This document shows positions 8,332-18,818 of a stretch of DNA of 46,803 nucleotides, in pieces. The notes under the pieces are model-generated. The model was not told the DNA's origin and searched no databases. It saw only the letters and a list, made by a program, of their open reading frames with translations. Within the stretch, counting starts at the first letter, position 1. Each line of letters starts with the position of its first letter. A program made the translations under genes and the position numbers. The stretch comes from an uncultured Burkholderiales bacterium (lineage in GTDB: Bacteria > Pseudomonadota > Gammaproteobacteria > Burkholderiales > Burkholderiaceae_C), in assembly GCA_903910745.1 (NCBI GenBank), contig CAIWAO010000019.1:66018-112820 (forward strand). The letters are read 5' to 3'.

Positions 8332-9375
8332 ATGTCTAGACGCATTTTTAATAAAACCGTCCTTCTTGCTAGTTTCGCCGCGAGCATTGTTTTTACAGCT
8401 GGCGTTGCTAAGGCTCAAACAGTTCCAATTAAGTTTCAACTAGACTGGCGCTTTGAAGGACCTTCAGCCTTATTTTTAGTCCCAGTTGCAAAAGGGTATT
8501 TTAAGGAAGCTAATCTAGATGTCACAGTGGATGCAGGTAACGGCTCAGGTGGTGCAGTGACAAGAGTTGCCTCTGGCACATATGACTTAGGATTTGCAGA
8601 CTTAGCGGCCTTGATGGAGTTCAATGCAAACAACCCAGATGCGCCAAATAAACCAGTTGCCATCATGATGGTTTATAACAATACGCCTGCATCAGTAATG
8701 ACGCTTAAAAAGTCGGGAATCAAAACCCCAGCTGATTTGAACGGTAAGAAATTAGGAGCTCCTGTATTTGACGCTGGAAGACGTGCATTCCCTATTTTCT
8801 CCAAAGCTAACAACATATCAAACGTAGCATGGACTGCAATGGATCCAACACTGCGTGAGACGATGCTTGTCAAAGGCGATGTTGATGCGATAACTGGTTT
8901 TACTTTCACTTCACTCTTAAACATAGAAGCCCGAGGTGTTCCTGCTTCTGAGGTTGTTGTGATGCAGTATCCAGACTACGGTGTCAAGCTTTATGGAAAC
9001 GCAGTCATTGCTTCACCCAAAATTCTCAAAGAAAATCCCGCTGCAGTAAGAGCGTTTTTGAAGGCCTTTACAAAAGGTGTTAAGGACGTAATCGCAGATC
9101 CTGCAAAAGCAATTGAAGCCGTTAAAGCAAGGGACGGAATTATCAACACTGAATTAGAGACACGCCGATTAAAACTGGCCATCGACACCGTCATCAATAG
9201 CTCAGATGCGCACAAGGAGGGTTTTGGCCAAATCAATCCACCCCGATTGGCTTTGATGGCGTCCCAAGTATCTGACGCGTTTAACACAAAAAGCCGGATT
9301 TCGGTTGATAGTTCATGGAACGGTTCATTCTTACCAAGCGCCAAAGAACTTGATATCCTCCCTAAAATCAAATAA
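8332..9375 (+). CDS. ABC transporter substrate-binding protein (NMT1/SsuA-like)
   Basis: A 347-residue periplasmic binding protein of the nitrate/sulfonate/taurine/pyrimidine-precursor (NMT1-SsuA) family. The N-terminal signal peptide ends at about residue 28 (GVAKAQ). The mature part starts with IKFQLDWRFEGPSALFLVP, as in this family, followed by the G-rich ligand loop DAGNGSGGAVTRVASG and the second-lobe motif KTPADLNGKKLG. The start ATG has AGGAGCC upstream. It is the first gene of a three-gene importer (binding protein, ATPase, permease) with gaps of 12-15 bp. Because it follows the purine genes and has a sigma-54-like promoter, the ligand is probably a nitrogen compound such as a purine, allantoin or a ureide. 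The family alone does not tell which. Confidence 0.88.
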   Translation: MSRRIFNKTVLLASFAASIVFTAGVAKAQTVPIKFQLDWRFEGPSALFLVPVAKGYFKEANLDVTVDAGNGSGGAVTRVASGTYDLGFADLAALMEFNANNPDAPNKPVAIMMVYNNTPASVMTLKKSGIKTPADLNGKKLGAPVFDAGRRAFPIFSKANNISNVAWTAMDPTLRETMLVKGDVDAITGFTFTSLLNIEARGVPASEVVVMQYPDYGVKLYGNAVIASPKILKENPAAVRAFLKAFTKGVKDVIADPAKAIEAVKARDGIINTELETRRLKLAIDTVINSSDAHKEGFGQINPPRLALMASQVSDAFNTKSRISVDSSWNGSFLPSAKELDILPKIK

Positions 9376-9390
9376 ATAATCTTATCCTCA

Positions 9391-10233
9391 ATGCCTGATT
9401 CTTCAAGTTACTTTGTTGATTTTCAAAACGTTTGGTTGGCCTACAACGAAGAGTTGCTAGCTAAAAACCAGTTCGCTGTAGAAGATATCAACCTACAGGT
9501 CAAACAAGGCGAGTTTATCGCCATAGTTGGACCTTCAGGTTGCGGTAAATCTACTTTTATGAAATTGACAACTGGTCTTAGAAAACCCACAAAAGGCACC
9601 ATTCATGTGGACTCTAAGCCTGTCACGGGTCCCTTAAAGATCAGCGGCATGGCTTTTCAATCGCCCTCACTTCTTCCTTGGCGCACCACGCTTGACAATG
9701 TTTTGCTACCCCTAGAAATTGTTGAGCCCTTTCGCTCCAACTTTAAATCAAAGCGAGACGAATACGTACAACGCGCTTTAGCACTTTTAAAGTCAGTCGG
9801 ACTCGAAGGCTACGCTGATCAGTACCCCTGGCAACTCTCAGGGGGGATGCAACAACGGGCCAGTATTTGTAGGGCCCTGATTCATGAACCCAAAATGCTG
9901 TTACTTGACGAACCCTTTGGGGCCTTGGACGCTTTTACGAGGGAGGAATTGTGGTGCATTTTGAGAGACTTATGGACCGAGCAAAAATTCAACGTCATCC
10001 TTGTTACCCACGATCTTAGAGAATCTGTTTTCCTTGCTGATACGGTATATGTGATGAGTAAGAGTCCGGGGCGTTTTGTAGTTAAACGTGATATCAATCT
10101 CCCTAGACCCCGAGATTTAGAGGTCACTTACACACCCGAATTTACTGAAATCGTTCATGAGCTGAGAGGTCATATCGGAGCTATCAGGCAGCAAAGTAAA
10201 AATCCATTATCTCCCCCCGTAATAGCTCAATAA
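9391..10233 (+). CDS. ABC transporter ATP-binding protein (SsuB/TauB-like)
   Basis: A 280-residue cytosolic ATPase powering the importer encoded around it. Walker A is GPSGCGKS at about residues 47-54, the Q-loop region is FQSPSLLPWR, the signature is LSGGMQQR near 153, Walker B is LLLDEPFGALD near 170, and the switch His follows in LVTHDLRE. The FQ...LLPW and EPFGALDAFTRE strings are typical of the nitrate/taurine importer branch. It starts 15 bp after the binding-protein gene and ends 12 bp before the permease gene, so the three are one operon. Confidence 0.92.
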   Translation: MPDSSSYFVDFQNVWLAYNEELLAKNQFAVEDINLQVKQGEFIAIVGPSGCGKSTFMKLTTGLRKPTKGTIHVDSKPVTGPLKISGMAFQSPSLLPWRTTLDNVLLPLEIVEPFRSNFKSKRDEYVQRALALLKSVGLEGYADQYPWQLSGGMQQRASICRALIHEPKMLLLDEPFGALDAFTREELWCILRDLWTEQKFNVILVTHDLRESVFLADTVYVMSKSPGRFVVKRDINLPRPRDLEVTYTPEFTEIVHELRGHIGAIRQQSKNPLSPPVIAQ

Positions 10234-10245
10234 ATAAATAATCAG

Positions 10246-11013
10246 ATGCAACAAAAATCTATTGAACGCTGGTCTCCTTGGGCGCTGCTAGTCATCAGCA
10301 TCGTCATTTGGCAGATCATCTGCAGCGTATTTAATGTCTCTGAATTCATATTTCCCAGTCCACTTCGCATTTGGAATCAGTTAATTGAATACAGAACAAC
10401 CATCGCAGCCCATGCTTGGAGGACCTATTGGGTCACCATGGCTGGGTTTGGATTAGCCATTGTTGTTGGAGTTTTACTTGGCTTTGTCATAGGAAGTTCA
10501 AGGATGGCTTATGCGGCTGTTTACCCACTAATGACCGCATTTAATGCCTTACCTAAAGCCGCCTTTGTTCCGATCTTAGTTGTTTGGTTCGGGATAGGTA
10601 TTGGTCCTGCAATACTCACATCTTTTTTGATCAGTTTTTTCCCCATCATGGTCAACATTGCTACTGGACTTGCAACCCTGGAGCCAGAGTTAGAGGACGT
10701 TTTGCGCGTGTTGGGCGCAAAGCGCTGGGATGTGCTGGTCAAAGTGGGGCTTCCCCGCTCTATGCCTTATTTTTTTGGCTCATTAAAAGTCGCTATCACT
10801 TTGGCCTTTGTTGGCACCACGGTCTCCGAGATGACTGCGGCTAATGAAGGAATAGGCTACTTACTTATCTCCGCAGGATCTGCAATGCAAATGGGTCTGG
10901 CTTTTGGTGGACTCGTGGTTGTTGGAGCAATGGCGATGGTAATGTACGAACTTTTTAATTACATTGAACTTCACACAACGGCCTGGGCTCACAGAGGTTC
11001 TCAAAATAATTAG
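10246..11013 (+). CDS. ABC transporter permease (SsuC/TauC-like)
   Basis: A 255-residue inner-membrane permease with about six hydrophobic spans. The cytoplasmic EAA loop is present near residues 155-175 (LGAKRWDVLVKVGLPRSMPY), the contact site for the ATPase. FNALPKAAFVPILVVWFGIG is the conserved stretch of the NMT1-type permeases. It is the last gene of the three-gene importer; 234 bp follow before the next gene. Confidence 0.92.
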   Translation: MQQKSIERWSPWALLVISIVIWQIICSVFNVSEFIFPSPLRIWNQLIEYRTTIAAHAWRTYWVTMAGFGLAIVVGVLLGFVIGSSRMAYAAVYPLMTAFNALPKAAFVPILVVWFGIGIGPAILTSFLISFFPIMVNIATGLATLEPELEDVLRVLGAKRWDVLVKVGLPRSMPYFFGSLKVAITLAFVGTTVSEMTAANEGIGYLLISAGSAMQMGLAFGGLVVVGAMAMVMYELFNYIELHTTAWAHRGSQNN

Positions 11014-11247
11014 TTTTAAGGCGTTTTCATCAAAATAACGCCGCTAATGTAAGAGAATATCGACAATTATCCTGCGTAATCCAATCCGACCAGTCTCTGG
11101 ATGGATGGAGTGTGAGTCCGACATTCAGACTTTCAGACTTTCACAAAGCGGATTCAAAATCTGGCAATTTGGGCAACTCGAAAAACTTCAAACATTGTTC
11201 TCTTACACATTTGTAACAAGAGATCATCCAAACCAATTCACTTAAGT
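11014..11247. other. Intergenic region with hairpin and 8-bp tandem repeat
   Basis: GGCGTTTT at 11020-11027 can pair with AACGCC at 11038-11043, forming a hairpin after the permease gene, but no T-run follows, so it is not a classic intrinsic terminator. TTCAGACT occurs twice in tandem at 11124-11139, and GGATGGATGG at about 11099-11108. No gene or clear promoter is seen. Confidence 0.4.
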
Positions 11248-11913
11248 ATGTCACTTATGGAACAAACTCCTGAAAAAATCACACCCAAAAAATTAGGCCC
11301 AACTTGGGTTGATATCTTGTTTCTCATATTTTTAGTAGGTGTGCTGATCTCAGTAACTTTGCTTGGACGACTCGCGTTTGAGGAGGGCATGAAGACCGAG
11401 AGATCTAAAGAAAATGGTGAGGCTTGGGTTAAATGGCTCACCGACAACAGTGCTGAGAGATTTAAAGAGGGATTTCAGCCATCGGCCTGCGCTGGTGGCC
11501 CGGTTGTGGCAGCTGCTCTTGAACATGAGAGAAAAGAGCTGATGAGGGCTGCAAGATTAGCAGCCAAAAAAGCCGGTACAGAAGACGAGCCCATCACCCT
11601 GCCCGATATTCCAATTGGAACTTGGGGCGAGTGCTTTAAGGCGTTGACTGCGAAGGGGGGAGCTCTTGCAGATCAAATCAATGCTTTCTCCTTGGAGCCA
11701 CTCACTTTGGTCGCTAAATGTGATCCAGGCGATCTGTCCACGGCTGGGGGATTCTTACTCGAAAAAAATGTATCTACTCCTGTTGGATCTGCAATCCCGC
11801 AAGTGACCAGCACATTAGCAGACAATGACTTAATAGTTGAGAAAGTAAATATCAGGATCACCATTTGCGACAAAGGTGCATACCCTACAAAAATTGCCGA
11901 ATTTGACTTCTAA
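11248..11913 (+). CDS. Single-span membrane protein of unknown function, next to the channel gene
   Basis: I do not recognise this 221-residue protein. It has a lysine-containing N-terminus, one strong membrane span at about residues 21-40 (VDILFLIFLVGVLISVTLLG), and a soluble part that should lie in the periplasm. That part carries four cysteines, at about 81, 129, 158 and 207, enough for two disulphides, and a charged helical stretch around 92-115. The gene lies 23 bp upstream of the tandem voltage-sensor channel and on the same strand, so it is probably co-transcribed and may be an accessory subunit; that is inference. The start may be the ATG at 11248 or the one at 11257; neither has a clear Shine-Dalgarno. 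Confidence 0.75.
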   Translation: MSLMEQTPEKITPKKLGPTWVDILFLIFLVGVLISVTLLGRLAFEEGMKTERSKENGEAWVKWLTDNSAERFKEGFQPSACAGGPVVAAALEHERKELMRAARLAAKKAGTEDEPITLPDIPIGTWGECFKALTAKGGALADQINAFSLEPLTLVAKCDPGDLSTAGGFLLEKNVSTPVGSAIPQVTSTLADNDLIVEKVNIRITICDKGAYPTKIAEFDF

Positions 11914-11936
11914 ATCTCAATCAAGCAGTACCTTAT

Positions 11937-13565
11937 ATGACAGAAGAACCAAAACTCCGCGGACATGATTACAAGGTAGAAATACCTGCTGGACTCCCAT
12001 TTAAGGAGTGGCTATATGCTTGGCTACTGGATCCAGAGATAGAGGGCAATCATCTTAAAGATGTCGATAAATGGATTGGCCTGCTTATTGTGGGCAACAT
12101 GTTTGCTCTGCTATTTGAGCATGTCCCAGCCGTATTTGAACCCAACAAAGGTTGGTTTCATTTATTCGATATTATTTCAGTAACTGTTTTCACAATTGAA
12201 TATCTAACTAGGCTCTACCTTGCCCCAGTTGACCGCGAGTTCAAGGGTAAGCGCATGTCAACGCTGAGATACATTTTCAGCCCATTTGCCGTCATTGATT
12301 TTTTAGCAATTATCCCCTTTTACCTGCAGTCATTTATTGCTGTAGATCTTAGGATCTTAAGAGCACTTCGGTTGCTAAGGATTTTGAAGCTCTTTAGAGT
12401 CATTATTCCTGCTATCCAAGATTTCAGAGAAGCCAATAAAGAAAGAACTTTTAGGCAAAAAATGCATGCAATCATCTACCCGTCTGACTACGGAGGTAAA
12501 TTGCATGAACTGTTTGACTCATTTATTGTTTTATGGGTCATTCTCTCCGTTATTGCGGTGATCTTTGAGTCAGTTCAAAGTATTCACTACATACTCAATA
12601 TTGAATTTGTTGTACTCGATGCAGTGGCTGTCGGTGTGTTTACGATGGAGTATTTCCTTCGCCTTTACACTTGCGTTGAAGAGCCAGGATTTGAGCATGC
12701 AGTTTGGGGAAGAATTAAGCTTGCCAAAACCACCTCATCTGTCATTGATTTTCTTGCAATACTGCCATTTTTCTTAGAAGTGTTTCTACACCATCTATTT
12801 GATTTGCGTTTCCTGCGGGTCTTCCGTTTAATGCGGCTCTTAAAGCTGACCCGATACACAGAGGCCACAGCAACACTTGGTAAAGTTATTGCCAGAGAAT
12901 GGCCCGTCATGGCAGCGTCTGGTTTTGTGATGTTGTTACTGGTCGTTTTAACGGCAAGCTTAGGCTATTTATTTGAACACGAGGCACAACCCGATAAATT
13001 TGAGAACATACCTCAATCGATTTACTGGGCCGTTATCACGCTTGCCTCTGTTGGTTATGGAGATTTAACGCCGGTCACCCCAATGGGGCGAGCGATGACG
13101 ATCATCTTGGCGTTGATGGGAATTGGTATTTTTGCGATCCCTGCGGCTCTCTTATCAACTGCATTTAGTGATCAACTTCGTATCGACAGAGAAAAGTTGT
13201 TGAACAGACTTTACGAAATGCTTTCTGTGGGTAAACTAACCTTCGAGGACGCTGAAATTATCAACAAGGAAGCCAAACGACTTCATATGTCCGAGGAAGA
13301 GGTTCAACGCCTATACGAAAAGGCTAAAAAGGACCGTGAACTTATGGATGATGTTTCATCCCTGCCTTTACACAAAATTGCCGCAGTCCCCGAGCATGCT
13401 GTTGAGCACTATAAGTCCTTGATCTCAGAAATAAAAGAACTAAGTATTATGACCAACCGGGCTGAGTTTGAGGAAATTGCAACATCTAAAGACCGAATCA
13501 CCGCAACCGATTTAGCTCTGTGGAAGGTCATTTTAAGCAATATACCTAACCCCTCAGAGAAATGA
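11937..13565 (+). CDS. Potassium channel with two tandem voltage-sensor domains and one pore
   Basis: A 542-residue ion-transport protein. Voltage sensor 1 covers residues ~46-156: S1 46-64, S2 74-95 with Glu88, S3 112-134 with Asp121, and S4 with R139, R142, R145, R148, K151, R154. Voltage sensor 2 covers ~191-309: S2 Glu238, S3 Asp271, and S4 with R291, R294, R297, R300, K303, R306. The S4 charge spacing is identical, and the S2/S3 strings (TIEYLTRLY / TMEYFLRLY, VIDFLAIIPF / VIDFLAILPF) show an internal duplication. A pore domain follows: S5 322-345, filter TLASVGYGDL at 368-377, S6 385-410. A helical charged tail runs 411-542. Ordinary bacterial Kv channels have one sensor and six spans; here ten spans are predicted. 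The filter implies K+ selectivity. The gene is out of place metabolically, between the importer and ureD. Confidence 0.9.
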   Translation: MTEEPKLRGHDYKVEIPAGLPFKEWLYAWLLDPEIEGNHLKDVDKWIGLLIVGNMFALLFEHVPAVFEPNKGWFHLFDIISVTVFTIEYLTRLYLAPVDREFKGKRMSTLRYIFSPFAVIDFLAIIPFYLQSFIAVDLRILRALRLLRILKLFRVIIPAIQDFREANKERTFRQKMHAIIYPSDYGGKLHELFDSFIVLWVILSVIAVIFESVQSIHYILNIEFVVLDAVAVGVFTMEYFLRLYTCVEEPGFEHAVWGRIKLAKTTSSVIDFLAILPFFLEVFLHHLFDLRFLRVFRLMRLLKLTRYTEATATLGKVIAREWPVMAASGFVMLLLVVLTASLGYLFEHEAQPDKFENIPQSIYWAVITLASVGYGDLTPVTPMGRAMTIILALMGIGIFAIPAALLSTAFSDQLRIDREKLLNRLYEMLSVGKLTFEDAEIINKEAKRLHMSEEEVQRLYEKAKKDRELMDDVSSLPLHKIAAVPEHAVEHYKSLISEIKELSIMTNRAEFEEIATSKDRITATDLALWKVILSNIPNPSEK

Positions 13566-13613
13566 GCAAATGACTCTATCAACGGAACACCCTCACCTAG
13601 CACTACTTAATCA

Positions 13614-14444
13614 GTGACTTGGAACGCCCGCCTGGATCTGCACTATGCCCGTGCAGACTCCTCCACCATCGTCAAATATGAGCACTCGGGTCCCCTTCGC
13701 ATACTTCGAAGCCTATACCCCGAGGGTCCACAAAGCTGTCATAACGTTTTGATCCATCCCCCAAGTGGCCTAGTGGGGGGCGATAGGTTGGATATTGGTA
13801 TTGATATGGTTGACGCCTCGCATGCCCTTATTACAACCCCTGGTGCTACGCGGTTTTATAAATCTGAATCAAAATGGGCCACGCAAGATGTCCAAGTGGT
13901 TTTGCAAGATAACTCTAGGCTTGAGTGGTTGCCGCTAGAAACATTGGCTTATGACGGCTGTATGGCCCGCAACATTTGCTCTTTTGATCTAAAAGACCAA
14001 TCAGAGTTGATTGCCTGGGACGTCACTGCACTAGGAATGCCTAGTGCACAACTTCCCTTCATCAACGGCGTTATAGAGCAACATTTTGAGATTAAAGGAC
14101 ACTGGCTAGATAAGGGCAGTATCAAGGCAAATGACATCAAACTTTTAAATAGTCCCTTGGGACTAAACGCAAGAAAGTGCTTAGCCACACTTGTGTTCGC
14201 AAGCGCTAAAGCACTGAGCGACGAACAAAGAAACAAAATTCTAGAATTAGCAAGAGAAGTGATTCAAGTTGAGGGACTAAACATTCAAGTAGGAGCCACT
14301 TCTCCTGGACCCAACGTGATTGTCGTTAGGGCGCTCTCAGACTTGGTGGAGCCTTCCATGAAATTACTTCGCAGTATTTGGCTTGAATGGAGATCACAAC
14401 TTTGGGGGCTAAGCCCTGTCATGCCAAGGATATGGGCTCTCTAG
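13614..14444 (+). CDS. ureD: Urease accessory protein UreD
   Basis: A 276-residue urease chaperone that binds the apo-enzyme as UreDFG during nickel insertion. Family signatures are visible: GPLRILRSLYPEG near residue 26, CHNVLIHPPSGLVGGDRL near 42-59, TTPGATRFYKS near 74, and LEWLPLETLAYDG near 103. The start is GTG at 13614; an in-frame stop only two codons upstream excludes an earlier start. No Shine-Dalgarno is seen, suggesting read-through from the channel gene 48 bp upstream. It is convergent with urtE and is separated by the whole urt operon, about 6 kb, from ureABCEFG, a split arrangement. Confidence 0.95.
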   Translation: MTWNARLDLHYARADSSTIVKYEHSGPLRILRSLYPEGPQSCHNVLIHPPSGLVGGDRLDIGIDMVDASHALITTPGATRFYKSESKWATQDVQVVLQDNSRLEWLPLETLAYDGCMARNICSFDLKDQSELIAWDVTALGMPSAQLPFINGVIEQHFEIKGHWLDKGSIKANDIKLLNSPLGLNARKCLATLVFASAKALSDEQRNKILELAREVIQVEGLNIQVGATSPGPNVIVVRALSDLVEPSMKLLRSIWLEWRSQLWGLSPVMPRIWAL

Positions 14445-14476
14445 AGTTTGTGCACATCACAAATTGAGGGTACCAC

Positions 14477-15175
14477 TCAAATAGCTACGATTTGTCTTAT
14501 GCCCTTCTCAACCATTTCAGATCCAGGCCCTTTGGCCACCACCTCACCCCTGTCCATGACCACATAATAGTCAGCTAATTCTTCAGCGAAATCATAATAT
14601 TGCTCGCACAAAAGAATTCCCATGTCCCCTCTATTGGCAAGCATTTTAATCACGCGACCGATATCTTTGATGATGCTTGGCTGGATACCCTCAGTCGGCT
14701 CATCGAGCACTAAAAGCTTAGGACTACTCGCAAGGGCTCGAGCGATGGCGAGTTGTTGTTGTTGTCCACCCGACAAGTCGCCTCCTTTACGGTGGAGCAT
14801 TTGTTTTAAAACAGGAAAAAGCTCAAACAACTCAGCAGGAATTGCGGTTGAAGCAGGCTTAGATGCCAACCCCATCGCTAAATTTTCTTCCACCGTTAGT
14901 CGGTTAAAAATCTCTCTACCTTGAGGCACAAAACCAATTCCTGCACGTGCTCGCTGATCCGTAGAAATATTTTGAATAGGTACCCCGTTAAGGTTGATGG
15001 TCCCTGAGCGAATAGGAACGAGTCCCATTAAAGATTTAAGCAAAGTTGTCTTACCAACGCCGTTTCTGCCAAGCAAAACCGTCACCTTACCCATTTCAGC
15101 TTCAATACTCACATCTCTCAGAATATGAGATCCACCGTAATACTGGTTAATATTTGAGAGCTCAAGTAATTTCAT
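14477..15175 (-). CDS. urtE: Urea ABC transporter ATPase UrtE
   Basis: A 232-residue branched-chain-amino-acid-type ATPase (LivF-like) of the urea importer. Walker A is GRNGVGKTT near residue 36, the signature is LSGGQQQQLAIARAL near 134, and Walker B is LLVLDEPTEGIQPSI near 153, with GIQPSII being typical of UrtE. It is the last gene of urtABCDE and abuts urtD with no intergenic base. The end faces ureD, with 32 bp containing two short hairpins (14447-14463 and 14464-14480) between the convergent genes. Confidence 0.93.
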   Translation of the reverse strand: MKLLELSNINQYYGGSHILRDVSIEAEMGKVTVLLGRNGVGKTTLLKSLMGLVPIRSGTINLNGVPIQNISTDQRARAGIGFVPQGREIFNRLTVEENLAMGLASKPASTAIPAELFELFPVLKQMLHRKGGDLSGGQQQQLAIARALASSPKLLVLDEPTEGIQPSIIKDIGRVIKMLANRGDMGILLCEQYYDFAEELADYYVVMDRGEVVAKGPGSEMVEKGIRQIVAI

Positions 15176-16033
15176 TTATCGCCCTAAATATACTTCAATA
15201 ACTTTTTCATTGCTTTGAACTTGATCAAAAGTTCCTTCAGCCAAAACGCAGCCTTCACTCAAAACCGTAATCTTCTCAGATATAGTTTTGATAAAAGACA
15301 TATCGTGCTCAACTACTATCAGAGAATGCTTACCTTTAAGCTCCAAAAATAGCTCAGCAGTTCTATGAGTTTCTTGGTCCGTCATTCCGGCAACAGGTTC
15401 ATCTAATAAAAGTAATTTAGGCTCTTGCATCAAAAGCATCCCTATCTCCAACCACTGCTTTTGACCATGACTTAGGTTTCCGGCCTGCCTGTTTATCGAG
15501 TCCTCAAGTTTGATAGTCTCTAAAACCTCAAGAAGCCTTGTCTTCTGTTCTGATTTGAGTTTAAAAAATATAGACGCCTTAACACGCTTATCTGTTTTTA
15601 GGGCTAGCTCCAAATTTTCAAATACCGAGAGCTGTTCAAAAACGGTGGGTTTCTGAAATTTTCTACCAATACCAAGCTGAGCAATTTCGGGCTCATTGTA
15701 TTCAAGCAAATTGATCGTGCTGCCAAAGAACACCTGCCCAGAATCTGGTTTTGTTTTTCCTGTGATGATATCCATCATCGTCGTTTTTCCAGCACCATTG
15801 GGACCAATAATGCAACGCAGTTCACCAGGCGCAATATCTAGTGATAGATTATTAATGGCTTTAAAGCCATCAAAACTCACGCTCACATCTTCTAAATAAA
15901 GTATTCGGCCGTGCGATAAATTCAGTTCCGTGGACCGCTTTATTCCGTCCAAGTGAACGGTACCACCATTAGGCTTATCTGCCTGGCTTAATGGGTTGGA
16001 CTCATCAGCTAGATTAAGAGCCACAGTACTCAT
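15176..16033 (-). CDS. urtD: Urea ABC transporter ATPase UrtD
   Basis: A 285-residue LivG-like ATPase, partner of UrtE. Walker A is GPNGAGKTT near residue 77, the signature is LSHGQKQWLEIGMLL near 188, and Walker B is LLLLDEPVAGMTDQE near 207. The LSHGQKQWLEIGMLL and AGMTDQET strings are characteristic of UrtD. The N-terminus has about 40 residues of extra, non-conserved sequence before YLEDVSVSFDGF. Its start overlaps the urtC stop by 4 bp. Confidence 0.93.
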   Translation of the reverse strand: MSTVALNLADESNPLSQADKPNGGTVHLDGIKRSTELNLSHGRILYLEDVSVSFDGFKAINNLSLDIAPGELRCIIGPNGAGKTTMMDIITGKTKPDSGQVFFGSTINLLEYNEPEIAQLGIGRKFQKPTVFEQLSVFENLELALKTDKRVKASIFFKLKSEQKTRLLEVLETIKLEDSINRQAGNLSHGQKQWLEIGMLLMQEPKLLLLDEPVAGMTDQETHRTAELFLELKGKHSLIVVEHDMSFIKTISEKITVLSEGCVLAEGTFDQVQSNEKVIEVYLGR

Positions 16034-17184
16034 TGGCTACCTTCCTTACTCTTTTTAGATTCGAATATTTTCTTCAATAGTCCAACAACACCGTTTGGTA
16101 AAAACAAGGTTACTGATATGAAAAGTGCCCCTAAAAAATAAAGCCAGAATTCAGGTGCAGTCATAGTCAGCCAACTTTTTGCACCGTTGACGATAAACGC
16201 ACCCAAAATGGGACCAATTAGAGTTCCACGACCACCTACAGCGGCCCAAATAGCAATCTCAATTGAATTTGCAGGACTCATCTCACTAGGGTTGATGATG
16301 CCCACCTGAGGCACATACAAGGCTCCAGCGACAGCACACATCATCGCTGAGAAAGTCCATATGGCTAATTTATAGGGGACAGGGGAATAACCACAAAACA
16401 TGACACGACTCTCGGAGTCTCTGATCGCTTGCAACAAGCGACCAAATTTACTTTGAACGATAAACTTAGATAGCAAATAAAAACCAAGCAAAGTTAAAGC
16501 CGTCATCACAAAAAGCACCATTCTTGTGGATTGTGTCGCCAGTGGTATGTTCAAAATTCTTTTGAAGTCTGTAAAACCATTGTTTCCTCCAAATCCCGTC
16601 TCATTTCTGAAAAACAACAACATAGTTGCAAACGTTAAGGCTTGAGTAATGATTGAAAAATATACACCCTTGATGCGGGATCGAAATGCGAAGAAGCCAA
16701 ACACAAAGGCTACAAAAGCTGGGACAAAAAGAATAATCAATAAGGTCGCAAAAAAGCTATCACTGAGTAACCAATGCCAGGGTAGTGTTTTCCAATCTAA
16801 AAAGACCATGAAATCAGGTAGTGCAGATTTATAGTTCCCATCCAACCCGATTTGTCTCATCAGGTACATCCCCATGGCGTATCCACCGAGCGCAAAAAAC
16901 AATCCATGGCCTAAAGACAATATACCTGTGTAGCCCCAAATGAGGTCCATTGCAAGGGCACATATAGCGTAGCACATGATTTTACCAATGAGTGCCACAT
17001 AAAAATCATTAATATGAAGTACGCTAGAGCTATCAATCAACATATTTAATGCGGGCACCAATGTAGTCAGAACAATGAAAACTGATATGAAGATGATCCA
17101 CCCCTTCTTATTCAAAAGAAGGCTTGGCTCTGGCAACACAATGTTGGTCACTTGAGATGAATGAATAGGGGTCGGAGTTTGCAT
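16030..17184 (-). CDS. urtC: Urea ABC transporter permease UrtC
   Basis: A 384-residue inner-membrane permease of the LivM type with about nine or ten hydrophobic spans. DLIWGYTGILSLGHGLFFAL near residue 80 and GYSPVPYKLAIWTFSAMM near 270 are conserved in UrtC. It pairs with UrtB to form the translocation path. The gene starts 20 bp after urtB and overlaps urtD by 4 bp. Confidence 0.93.
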   Translation of the reverse strand: MQTPTPIHSSQVTNIVLPEPSLLLNKKGWIIFISVFIVLTTLVPALNMLIDSSSVLHINDFYVALIGKIMCYAICALAMDLIWGYTGILSLGHGLFFALGGYAMGMYLMRQIGLDGNYKSALPDFMVFLDWKTLPWHWLLSDSFFATLLIILFVPAFVAFVFGFFAFRSRIKGVYFSIITQALTFATMLLFFRNETGFGGNNGFTDFKRILNIPLATQSTRMVLFVMTALTLLGFYLLSKFIVQSKFGRLLQAIRDSESRVMFCGYSPVPYKLAIWTFSAMMCAVAGALYVPQVGIINPSEMSPANSIEIAIWAAVGGRGTLIGPILGAFIVNGAKSWLTMTAPEFWLYFLGALFISVTLFLPNGVVGLLKKIFESKKSKEGSQ

Positions 17185-17204
17185 ATCTAGAATAACCGTT
17201 TATA

Positions 17205-18818
17205 TTAAGCTTCAGCGCTACGACCTTTGATCGCAAAAAGGCCTTGTGGTCTTTTTTGGATAAAGACAACAATAAACACAAGCACTGCAATTTTGGCAAG
17301 CACTGCGCCAGTCAATCCCTCGAGGATTTTATTGATTATTCCTAATCCAAGTGCTGCGTAAACGGTACCCGCTAGTTGTCCTACGCCACCAAGCACTACC
17401 ACCATGAACGCATCAACGATATATCCCTGACCTAAATCAGGGCCAACATTACCGATCTGACTTAGAGCGCATCCTGCCAGTCCTGCAATACCAGACCCAA
17501 GAGCAAAAGCATATGTGTCGATTCGTGCTGTATTGACTCCCATACAAGCAGCCATAGGCCTGTTTTGAGTAACCCCTCTCACAAACAATCCTAAACGTGT
17601 TTTGGAGATCAACAAAGCCATGCTAAGTAATACGAAGGCAGCAAAACCAATTATTACAATGCGGTTCCAAGGTAGCGTTAAATTGGGCAGGGCTTGTATA
17701 CCTCCGCTCATCCATGATGGGTTTTCAACTGTAACGTTTTGTGCACCAAATATTGTTCTGACCAACTGCATTAGTATCAAGCTAATTCCCCAGGTCGCGA
17801 GTAACGTCTCCAAGGGCCTGCCGTACAAGAAACGCAGCACGGAGCGCTCCAAGACTGCACCAACCAATGCTGCCGTTATAAATGAAACAGGTACAGCGAC
17901 TACCAAGTAAAAGTCAAAAGACGATTCAAAATGGTGTCTAAAAAAAACTTGAATCACGTAAGTTGCATAAGCCCCCACCATCATCAGTTCCCCGTGAGCC
18001 ATATTGATTACGCCCATTAGGCCATAAGTAATAGCTAATCCTAATGCGACCAGCAACAAAATGGAGCTCAAACTAACGCCCGTAAAGAGTGCACCTAGTC
18101 GCTCACCCCAAACCAAAGAGGACACTATTTTCTTGATGGAGTCTTGAATAGCGGCTTTAACCTGAGGGTCAGACTCAACACCAAGCCTTTGGTTGAGCAA
18201 TAGTTGTGTGTCTGGGGAGTGATTCGCAGAAAGTTTCTTTGCCGCTTCAAGTCTTAAGTCGACTTGATCTGAGCTCAGCAATATACTTGATTTGGCAATC
18301 TCGATTTGATCCCGAATATTTTGAATCTGCTCGCTTTTAAAAGCTCGCTCAAGCATATCAAATTTATTTACGTCAGGCTCTTTTTGAAGATCTTTAACTG
18401 CTGCAAGTCTTTCTTTCGGGTTTAAGCTAAATAGCCTCAAAGCAGATAAAGCGGAGTCTAGTTCTCCACGCATTCTGTTGTTGCTAACAACGTCTTGAGC
18501 TTGCGCAGGGATGCTCATGCTCTCGCCATTTATAGGATCTATGGCCTGATTGTTTTTGATTATAAAAACACGCGACTCTGATATTTTCACACTATCATCA
18601 GACAATGCCTGTAAAAATTGAATCGTTTTTTCATCTGGTTCTTTGATAACTTGCTGTAAGACTTCAAGCCTTTGATCAGTCTCTCCCATGGATAGGGCGC
18701 TTGCCTGCTTTGCTGTTAACGCATGCGCATTATGCGTAATCATAAGCAGCATTAAGCATGTAAATAAAAGTTCAAGCAAACAATTTGCTTTGTTGCTATT
18801 TTTGATGATCATACCCAT
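17205..18818 (-). CDS. urtB: Urea ABC transporter permease UrtB with periplasmic N-terminal domain
   Basis: A 537-residue permease. It begins with a signal-like hydrophobic segment (to about residue 33), followed by a soluble region of ~200 residues with repeated helical motifs (QRLEVLQQVI, KERLAAVKDL, DLRLEAAKKL), then the LivH-type membrane domain from about residue 240. GLAITYGLMGVINMAHGE and the C-terminal MVVVLGGVGQLAGTVYAALG are diagnostic. The long N-terminal domain is usual for proteobacterial UrtB but absent from amino-acid LivH proteins. Two possible ATG starts lie two codons apart (18818 and 18812). A strong hairpin lies in the 193 bp between urtA and urtB. Confidence 0.93.
   Translation of the reverse strand: MGMIIKNSNKANCLLELLFTCLMLLMITHNAHALTAKQASALSMGETDQRLEVLQQVIKEPDEKTIQFLQALSDDSVKISESRVFIIKNNQAIDPINGESMSIPAQAQDVVSNNRMRGELDSALSALRLFSLNPKERLAAVKDLQKEPDVNKFDMLERAFKSEQIQNIRDQIEIAKSSILLSSDQVDLRLEAAKKLSANHSPDTQLLLNQRLGVESDPQVKAAIQDSIKKIVSSLVWGERLGALFTGVSLSSILLLVALGLAITYGLMGVINMAHGELMMVGAYATYVIQVFFRHHFESSFDFYLVVAVPVSFITAALVGAVLERSVLRFLYGRPLETLLATWGISLILMQLVRTIFGAQNVTVENPSWMSGGIQALPNLTLPWNRIVIIGFAAFVLLSMALLISKTRLGLFVRGVTQNRPMAACMGVNTARIDTYAFALGSGIAGLAGCALSQIGNVGPDLGQGYIVDAFMVVVLGGVGQLAGTVYAALGLGIINKILEGLTGAVLAKIAVLVFIVVFIQKRPQGLFAIKGRSAEA

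Follow-up and report, generated by a model that had tools for sequence, protein, structure and literature searches.

The DNA described here encodes a variant of the voltage-gated potassium (Kv) channel with two complete voltage sensors and one pore per subunit, and, judged by its sequence relatives, this variant is real, old and strongly conserved and usually comes with a newly seen partner gene. The gene lies in a stretch of 46,803 nucleotides (the window) from an uncultured Burkholderiales bacterium, and the two-sensor layout is found in freshwater bacteria, nearly unchanged across many species. Along the chain the order is S1–S4, then S1–S4–S5–P–S6 with the filter TLASVGYGD (table 1). The TVGYG-type filter for potassium and an S4 with a basic residue at every third position beside S5–S6 are those of a Kv channel, but each subunit has two sensors and ten helices instead of one sensor and six helices.

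Table 1. Positions in the window of the two-sensor channel, its parts and the partner gene
Feature	Position	Strand	Evidence or remark
Partner gene, 221 aa, candidate accessory subunit	11248..11913	+	Ends 23 nt before channel start
Two-voltage-sensor potassium channel gene	11937..13565	+	542-aa ORF, ATG start
VSD1, S1–S4, residues 40–160	12054..12416	+	Ion_trans match of this half alone, AlphaFold2, Foldseek, conservation
VSD1 S4 basic residues R139–R154	12351–12398	+	
Linker, residues 161–186, basic stretch NKERTFRQK	12417..12494	+	
VSD2, S1–S4, residues 187–309	12495..12863	+	Pfam, conservation, AlphaFold2
VSD2 S4 basic residues R291–R306	12807–12854	+	
Pore domain S5–P–S6, residues 310–415	12864..13181	+	Pfam, conservation
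Filter TLASVGYGD	13038–13064	+	
C-terminal helical region, residues 416–542, presumed cytoplasmic	13182..13562	+	Conservation, AlphaFold2

Pfam finds Ion_trans in two stretches of the channel, the best at residues 191–413, and Ion_trans_2 over the pore part (332–410). The first half on its own (residues 20–188) matches Ion_trans at E 4.3e-15 over S1–S4, and the same family is found at E ≤0.01 in each of the 39 first halves aligned. The two sensors, VSD1 and VSD2, align with 37% identity over 113 columns (E 7e-20). The single reading frame, the Pfam matches and this alignment agree, confirming what an earlier note made from the sequence alone had proposed: two S1–S4 units in tandem and one pore. 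The tandem order given there stands, whereas its limits of about 46–156 and 191–309 do not, the helices predicted by AlphaFold2 placing them nearer 40–166 and 187–309. Its key residues are located as claimed: S2 carries a Glu (E88 in VSD1, E238 in VSD2), S3 an Asp (D121 and D271), and each S4 six basic residues at every third position, five Arg and one Lys (R139, R142, R145, R148, K151 and R154; R291, R294, R297, R300, K303 and R306). Also common to both sensors are an S2 Asp (D78/D228) and, after it and three residues ahead of the Glu, a Phe (F85/F235), both of which we take, after Shaker, to be charge-transfer residues. The stretch NKERTFRQK of the linker resembles the one ahead of S1 in the related single-sensor channel that this genome encodes, and the basic character of the linker would fit a cytoplasmic loop; since VSD1 has an even number of helices, VSD2 would keep its normal orientation.

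The full-length single-chain AlphaFold2 model (41 sequences; mean pLDDT 79.1, pTM 0.60) contains the 4+6 channel helices, at residues 40–61, 71–98, 116–133 and 138–166 in the first half and at 187–211, 214–248, 266–284, 290–305, 309–347, 352–376 and 382–429 in the rest. Ten-residue means of pLDDT are 81–93 at residues 41–160, 71–92 at 191–310 and 53–68 at 341–410; because of this last range and the pTM of 0.60, the model does not fix the arrangement of one sensor relative to the other. Modeled alone, VSD1 (residues 20–188, 39 sequences) reaches a pLDDT of 86.5 and a pTM of 0.75, and the structure prediction that the earlier note had suggested as a check thus gives a predicted sensor fold. When this model was compared with the PDB by Foldseek, the best 50 of 229 matches (E ≤10) were all Kv, KCNQ or Nav channels, at a query TM-score of 0.47–0.67 and a modest best E of 4.8e-4, two matches having E ≤0.001. 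The sequence profile of VSD1 finds KCNQ, Kv4, Kv2, Kv3 and Nav channels and one Cav channel in the PDB, the best match being the bacterial sodium channel 4bgn.

The extent of conservation was read from an alignment of 96 two-sensor proteins, chosen by sensor count and GYGD signature and not by S4 charge (95 distinct rows, 86 groups at 95% identity); a frame-broken gene (L044, G259), a split copy (L159, G025) and the cut copies L078, L122, L140 and L148 stand outside it. In VSD1, R139, R142, R145, R148, K151 and D121 are present in 96 of 96 rows and R154 in 95, F85 and E88 in all 94 rows covering both positions, and D78 in 91 of 96, the remainder being two Asn, one Glu and two gaps. VSD2 has R291, R294, R297, R300, K303, F235, E238 and D271 in 96 of 96 and D228 in 95 of 96, with position 306 an Arg in 94 and a Lys in two. 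Within the filter, T368, L369 and S371 are invariant (96/96), V372 is found in 95/96, and G373, Y374, G375 and D376 are in 96/96, GYGD having been the selection criterion. The decay of VSD1 charges that the earlier note had named as a counterindication was therefore not seen, the S4 charges being intact across the 96 rows.

Mean pairwise identity over the 96 rows is 64% for VSD1, 65% for VSD2, 61% for the linker and 82% for the pore; the N-terminus (44%) and the C-terminal region (42%) are the least conserved parts. Against the nearest relative, dN is 0.041 for VSD1, 0.039 for VSD2 and 0.015 for the pore, with dS of 3.1, 2.2 and 1.8, respectively. Two further relatives give a dN of VSD1 above that of VSD2 (0.068 vs. 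0.056 and 0.081 vs. 0.044), with dS mostly saturated. By these measures VSD1 is under strong constraint, near that of VSD2 and below that of the pore. At the level of sequence, the conservation of its S4 charges shows selection on VSD1, which is not the same as coupling to the pore.

Within the genus, 82 of 84 genomes hold a relative of the channel at E ≤1e-20, and in 76 of the 84 the match runs across both sensors into the pore by our reading of the match list. A VSD1 query finds matches at E 1e-10 in 15 of the 299 genomes of the family, ten of which have single-sensor channels; judged by span and reading frame, two-sensor genes are present in G000 (the genome of the window), G006, G027, G344 and, with a broken frame, G259. 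For the order, 31 of 399 genomes match, and VSD1, the linker and the start of VSD2 are all matched in G000, G588, G712 and G737; the layout was also met as single finds in two other families of the order. Among the best 80 of 144 named relatives, all 80 have a frame with two sensor matches, and most belong to uncultured Burkholderiales, Comamonadaceae or Limnohabitans, many coming from lakes by title. The homology search that the earlier note had called for thus finds the 4+6 layout kept across a large clade. Three Limnohabitans records (Rim11, JirII-31 and 2KL-17) are not labeled as metagenome bins and are probably from cultured organisms. A bin titled Bordetella parapertussis (L133, CAMDSO010000229.1) also carries this channel family, its title probably being a naming artefact.

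The genome of the window encodes a second two-sensor gene (C140:7487-9013), 53% identical to the first. Two loci hold tandem two-sensor genes with overlapping open frames (L156, 2547–4196 and 4184–5803; L158, 6626–8260 and 8236–9840). A divergent member of 491 aa, annotated as "ion transporter," is encoded on a plasmid of the alphaproteobacterium Gemmobacter aquarius (NZ_CP028919.1; L208, 3809–5281), near transposase-like ORF pieces, and has fewer charges in both S4s. Ten phage records are channel-related, in none of which 80% of the query is covered at one place. The same genome as the window also has two short channels with LESW filters (L001 and L002; G000 C96 and C87), which are presumably sodium channels of the NaChBac type.

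The earlier note had recognized the 4+6 layout and overlooked the paralogue in the same genome, the partner gene upstream and the channel genes that can follow. A single hydrophobic segment (about residues 21–42; no 19-residue mean above 1.6 starts after residue 60) is present in the partner, along with a presumed periplasmic domain carrying C81, C129, C158 and C207. Across 83 aligned homologues, W126, C129, N145, C158, G167, G180 and C207 are conserved at 100% and C81 at 99%. The copy in the window gives no Pfam match (among ten relatives, three have a single weak one, with E 0.0063 at best), nothing above the NCBIfam cut-off and a sole PDB match at E ≤1, with E 0.87; homology to a known Kv accessory subunit was found in none of Pfam, NCBIfam or the PDB. 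From its four conserved cysteines and the assumed topology, the partner would most plausibly be an accessory subunit whose outer domain is held by disulphides.

A homologue of the partner adjoins 82 of the 94 two-sensor genes with room upstream. Of 99 two-sensor rows, five lack such room; a script scored 79 of the 94 as partner-adjacent, and three were added on inspection, namely L125 and L139, where the homologue is on the locus beyond the distance limits of the script, and L188, where a more sensitive profile detected it. The 12 genes without an adjacent partner are paralogues, either of the C140 type (L149, L153) or of a second clade (L150–L152, L155, L156, L158), plus L144 and L145. With a main-lineage channel defined as best E <1e-160 (our own cut), 70 of the 84 genomes of the genus encode channel and partner, 12 neither, G044 the channel only and G082 the partner only; these two are no clear exceptions, since contig edges cut there (in G082 the contig ends 92 bases past the partner, and in G044 the channel match begins at base 4). 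Of the 12 with neither, G051 and G080 hold channel fragments. Also among the 12, G003, G007, G024, G058 and G076 have a more distant two-sensor channel and no match to the partner. The partner occurs in five of the 299 family genomes and four of the 399 order genomes, exactly those in which the two-sensor channel was found, in a comparison that spans three families and whose genomes are not independent draws. No match to the partner was found on plasmids. In L044 (G259 C6), both the two-sensor gene (frame change) and the partner homologue (one stop) appear broken.

In the window, the channel lies between an NMT1-type ABC transporter and ureD (8332–11013 and 13614–18818, by Pfam), and the opposite-strand ABC genes after ureD look like a urea transporter. 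This order of NMT1-type ABC genes and ureD recurs in many related loci, and the neighbourhood may hint at a link to urea or ammonium use. The association of partner and channel is not a by-product of this neighbourhood, as it persists when those neighbours change: among 56 partner loci with at least 3.5 kb on each side, 23 have both kinds of neighbour, 11 have one and 22 have neither on the stretch. What ties the two genes is genetic linkage, and their products may bind each other. A promoter scan of positions 11000–13700 found no site. Directly 3' of the two-sensor gene, two single-sensor channel genes follow in 32 of the 77 cases with 2 kb downstream, and none of the 77 has just one. The filters of this following pair are mostly TITSGYGN and TIISGWGN, and in L106 one of the pair is in pieces. 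Such altered-filter pairs are found downstream at L080, L091, L093, L150–L152 and other two-sensor loci; similar pairs with no two-sensor gene on the stretch occur in G646 and G702 (L191, L192).

The reading we favour, and consider somewhat probable, is that of a K+ channel gated by voltage in which a further working sensor, VSD1, precedes a six-helix Kv subunit, and whose accessory subunit is the partner. The subunit would have ten transmembrane helices, four from a complete VSD1 and six from the usual Kv unit behind it, and, by analogy with Kv channels, would tetramerise round one K+-conducting pore, giving eight sensors: four inner ones (VSD2) joined to S5 as usual, and four outer ones (VSD1) tied to S1 of VSD2 by the cytoplasmic linker, which is the sole covalent path from VSD1 to the pore side. 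VSD1 would move in the field and bias VSD2 and the pore through the linker, so that gating would depend on voltage more steeply or in two steps; the upstream single-pass protein of the main lineage may act as accessory subunit, with its outer domain on the channel. More tentatively, it is possible that the outer ring of VSD1 and the inner ring of VSD2, eight working sensors around one pore, have different voltage thresholds, and that a single-pass subunit specific to the channel links them and, by its outer domain, senses the periplasm, so that two thresholds and an outside signal would be integrated.

VSD1 might instead not gate at all and serve as a platform on which the partner or further channel subunits dock or assemble, its charges holding the bundle together. 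We regard this as unlikely. Single-pass proteins with an outer domain are known to associate with Kv channels, and the co-occurrence of partner and channel, the Kv4.2–DPP6S complex among the PDB matches and the two single-sensor channel genes following 32 of 77 two-sensor genes would all suit a platform; however, two-sensor paralogues without an adjacent partner keep the same VSD1 charges, VSD1 is not enriched in the positions at which partner-linked and partner-free lineages differ, and five invariant S4 charges together with the S2 and S3 acids are not readily explained by pure scaffolding. A search for a docking site of the partner among lineage-specific channel residues gave nothing clear. 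Because the S4 charges and the S2/S3 acids are kept with and without an adjacent partner, VSD1 seems to work as a sensor, beyond any role as scaffold.

That VSD1 itself conducts protons or other cations in the manner of Hv1, alongside the K+ pore, is very unlikely. As in Hv1 and the voltage-sensing phosphatases, VSD1 is a complete sensor without a pore of its own, not placed directly before S5–S6; Hv1, however, is a pore-free chain, whereas VSD1 is fused to a complete channel. The acids of the first S1 (D42 and D44 at the inner end, E61 at the outer end) have like-placed residues in the second (E191, D194 and E211), which leaves the role of proton modulator considered in the earlier note without specific support, and the PDB matches of the VSD1 profile are the Kv, KCNQ, Nav and Cav channels given above, and Hv1 is missing from the 55 sequences found at E ≤0.01.

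It is hardly credible that the layout arose as an artefact or through a tandem duplication that is recent and decaying: VSD1 and VSD2 are homologous, at 37% identity, but the single open frame recurs in many separately assembled genomes, the VSD1s form one old clade with intact charges, and dS is high or saturated and dN low in all three comparisons. The recurrence in genomes of the same genus and the 96-protein alignment rule out chance or artefact, and the intact charges, the single VSD1 clade and the dN/dS comparisons a recent decaying duplication. In a tree of 64 sensors, the VSD1s of 21 representatives form one clade (support 98/94), contrary to the recent local duplication that the earlier note had allowed for, and the VSD2s cluster with four single-sensor TLASVGYGD rows (97/94); one piece of the split copy L159 (G025) stood as a single-sensor row in this tree. 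An origin of VSD1 from another channel family is not favoured: the VSD1 clade neighbours the VSD2 group with its single-sensor TLASVGYGD channels and does not stand with other Kv sensors, though with weak support (81/88).

In the core tree, nine single-sensor TLASVGYGD relatives are the sister group of the two-sensor clade (98/91), which holds 24 two-sensor and two single-sensor rows. These two, L052 (G356) and L202 (G617), have perhaps lost VSD1; a six-frame check of L052 found VSD1 absent, leaving a single-sensor gene. The Gemmobacter protein, on a very long branch, belongs neither to the two-sensor clade nor to the single-sensor sister group, while its VSD1 lies inside the VSD1 clade (99/99, with the bootstrap not settled and again a very long branch).

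The bacterial single-sensor Kv channels, such as KvAP and KvLm, have one sensor per subunit, in contrast to the two found here; a member in the same genome (G000 C19:46047-47201, 388 aa) shares VSD2, the pore, the filter and the C-terminal helices. The best matches of sequence and fold among solved structures, for the whole channel and for VSD1 (4bgn excepted as the best match of the VSD1 profile), are the eukaryotic Kv2, Kv4 and KCNQ channels, again with one sensor per subunit, unlike the channel in the window. TPC likewise joins two sensors in one chain, but has a pore after each sensor, whereas here the only pore is that of residues 310–415. The partner resembles the single-pass subunits KCNE and DPP6 in its one hydrophobic segment and presumed outer soluble domain, and differs from them in that neither named families nor solved structures gave it a convincing match. 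The open-access titles and opening parts of abstracts that were listed, a set leaving subscription papers and preprints uncovered, contain no description of a bacterial channel that combines two sensors with a single pore.

To our knowledge, every pore of the voltage-gated superfamily is taken to have four sensors, no more and no fewer. With a naturally occurring 4+6 subunit whose two S4s are similarly constrained, one could test directly how sensor number sets the steepness of gating, and how a sensor not joined to S5 can act; the partner would allow a test of whether bacteria have true Kv accessory subunits. The two-sensor channels make up a defined family that includes the Limnohabitans records Rim11, JirII-31 and 2KL-17, and they suggest that freshwater bacteria may signal electrically or control K+.
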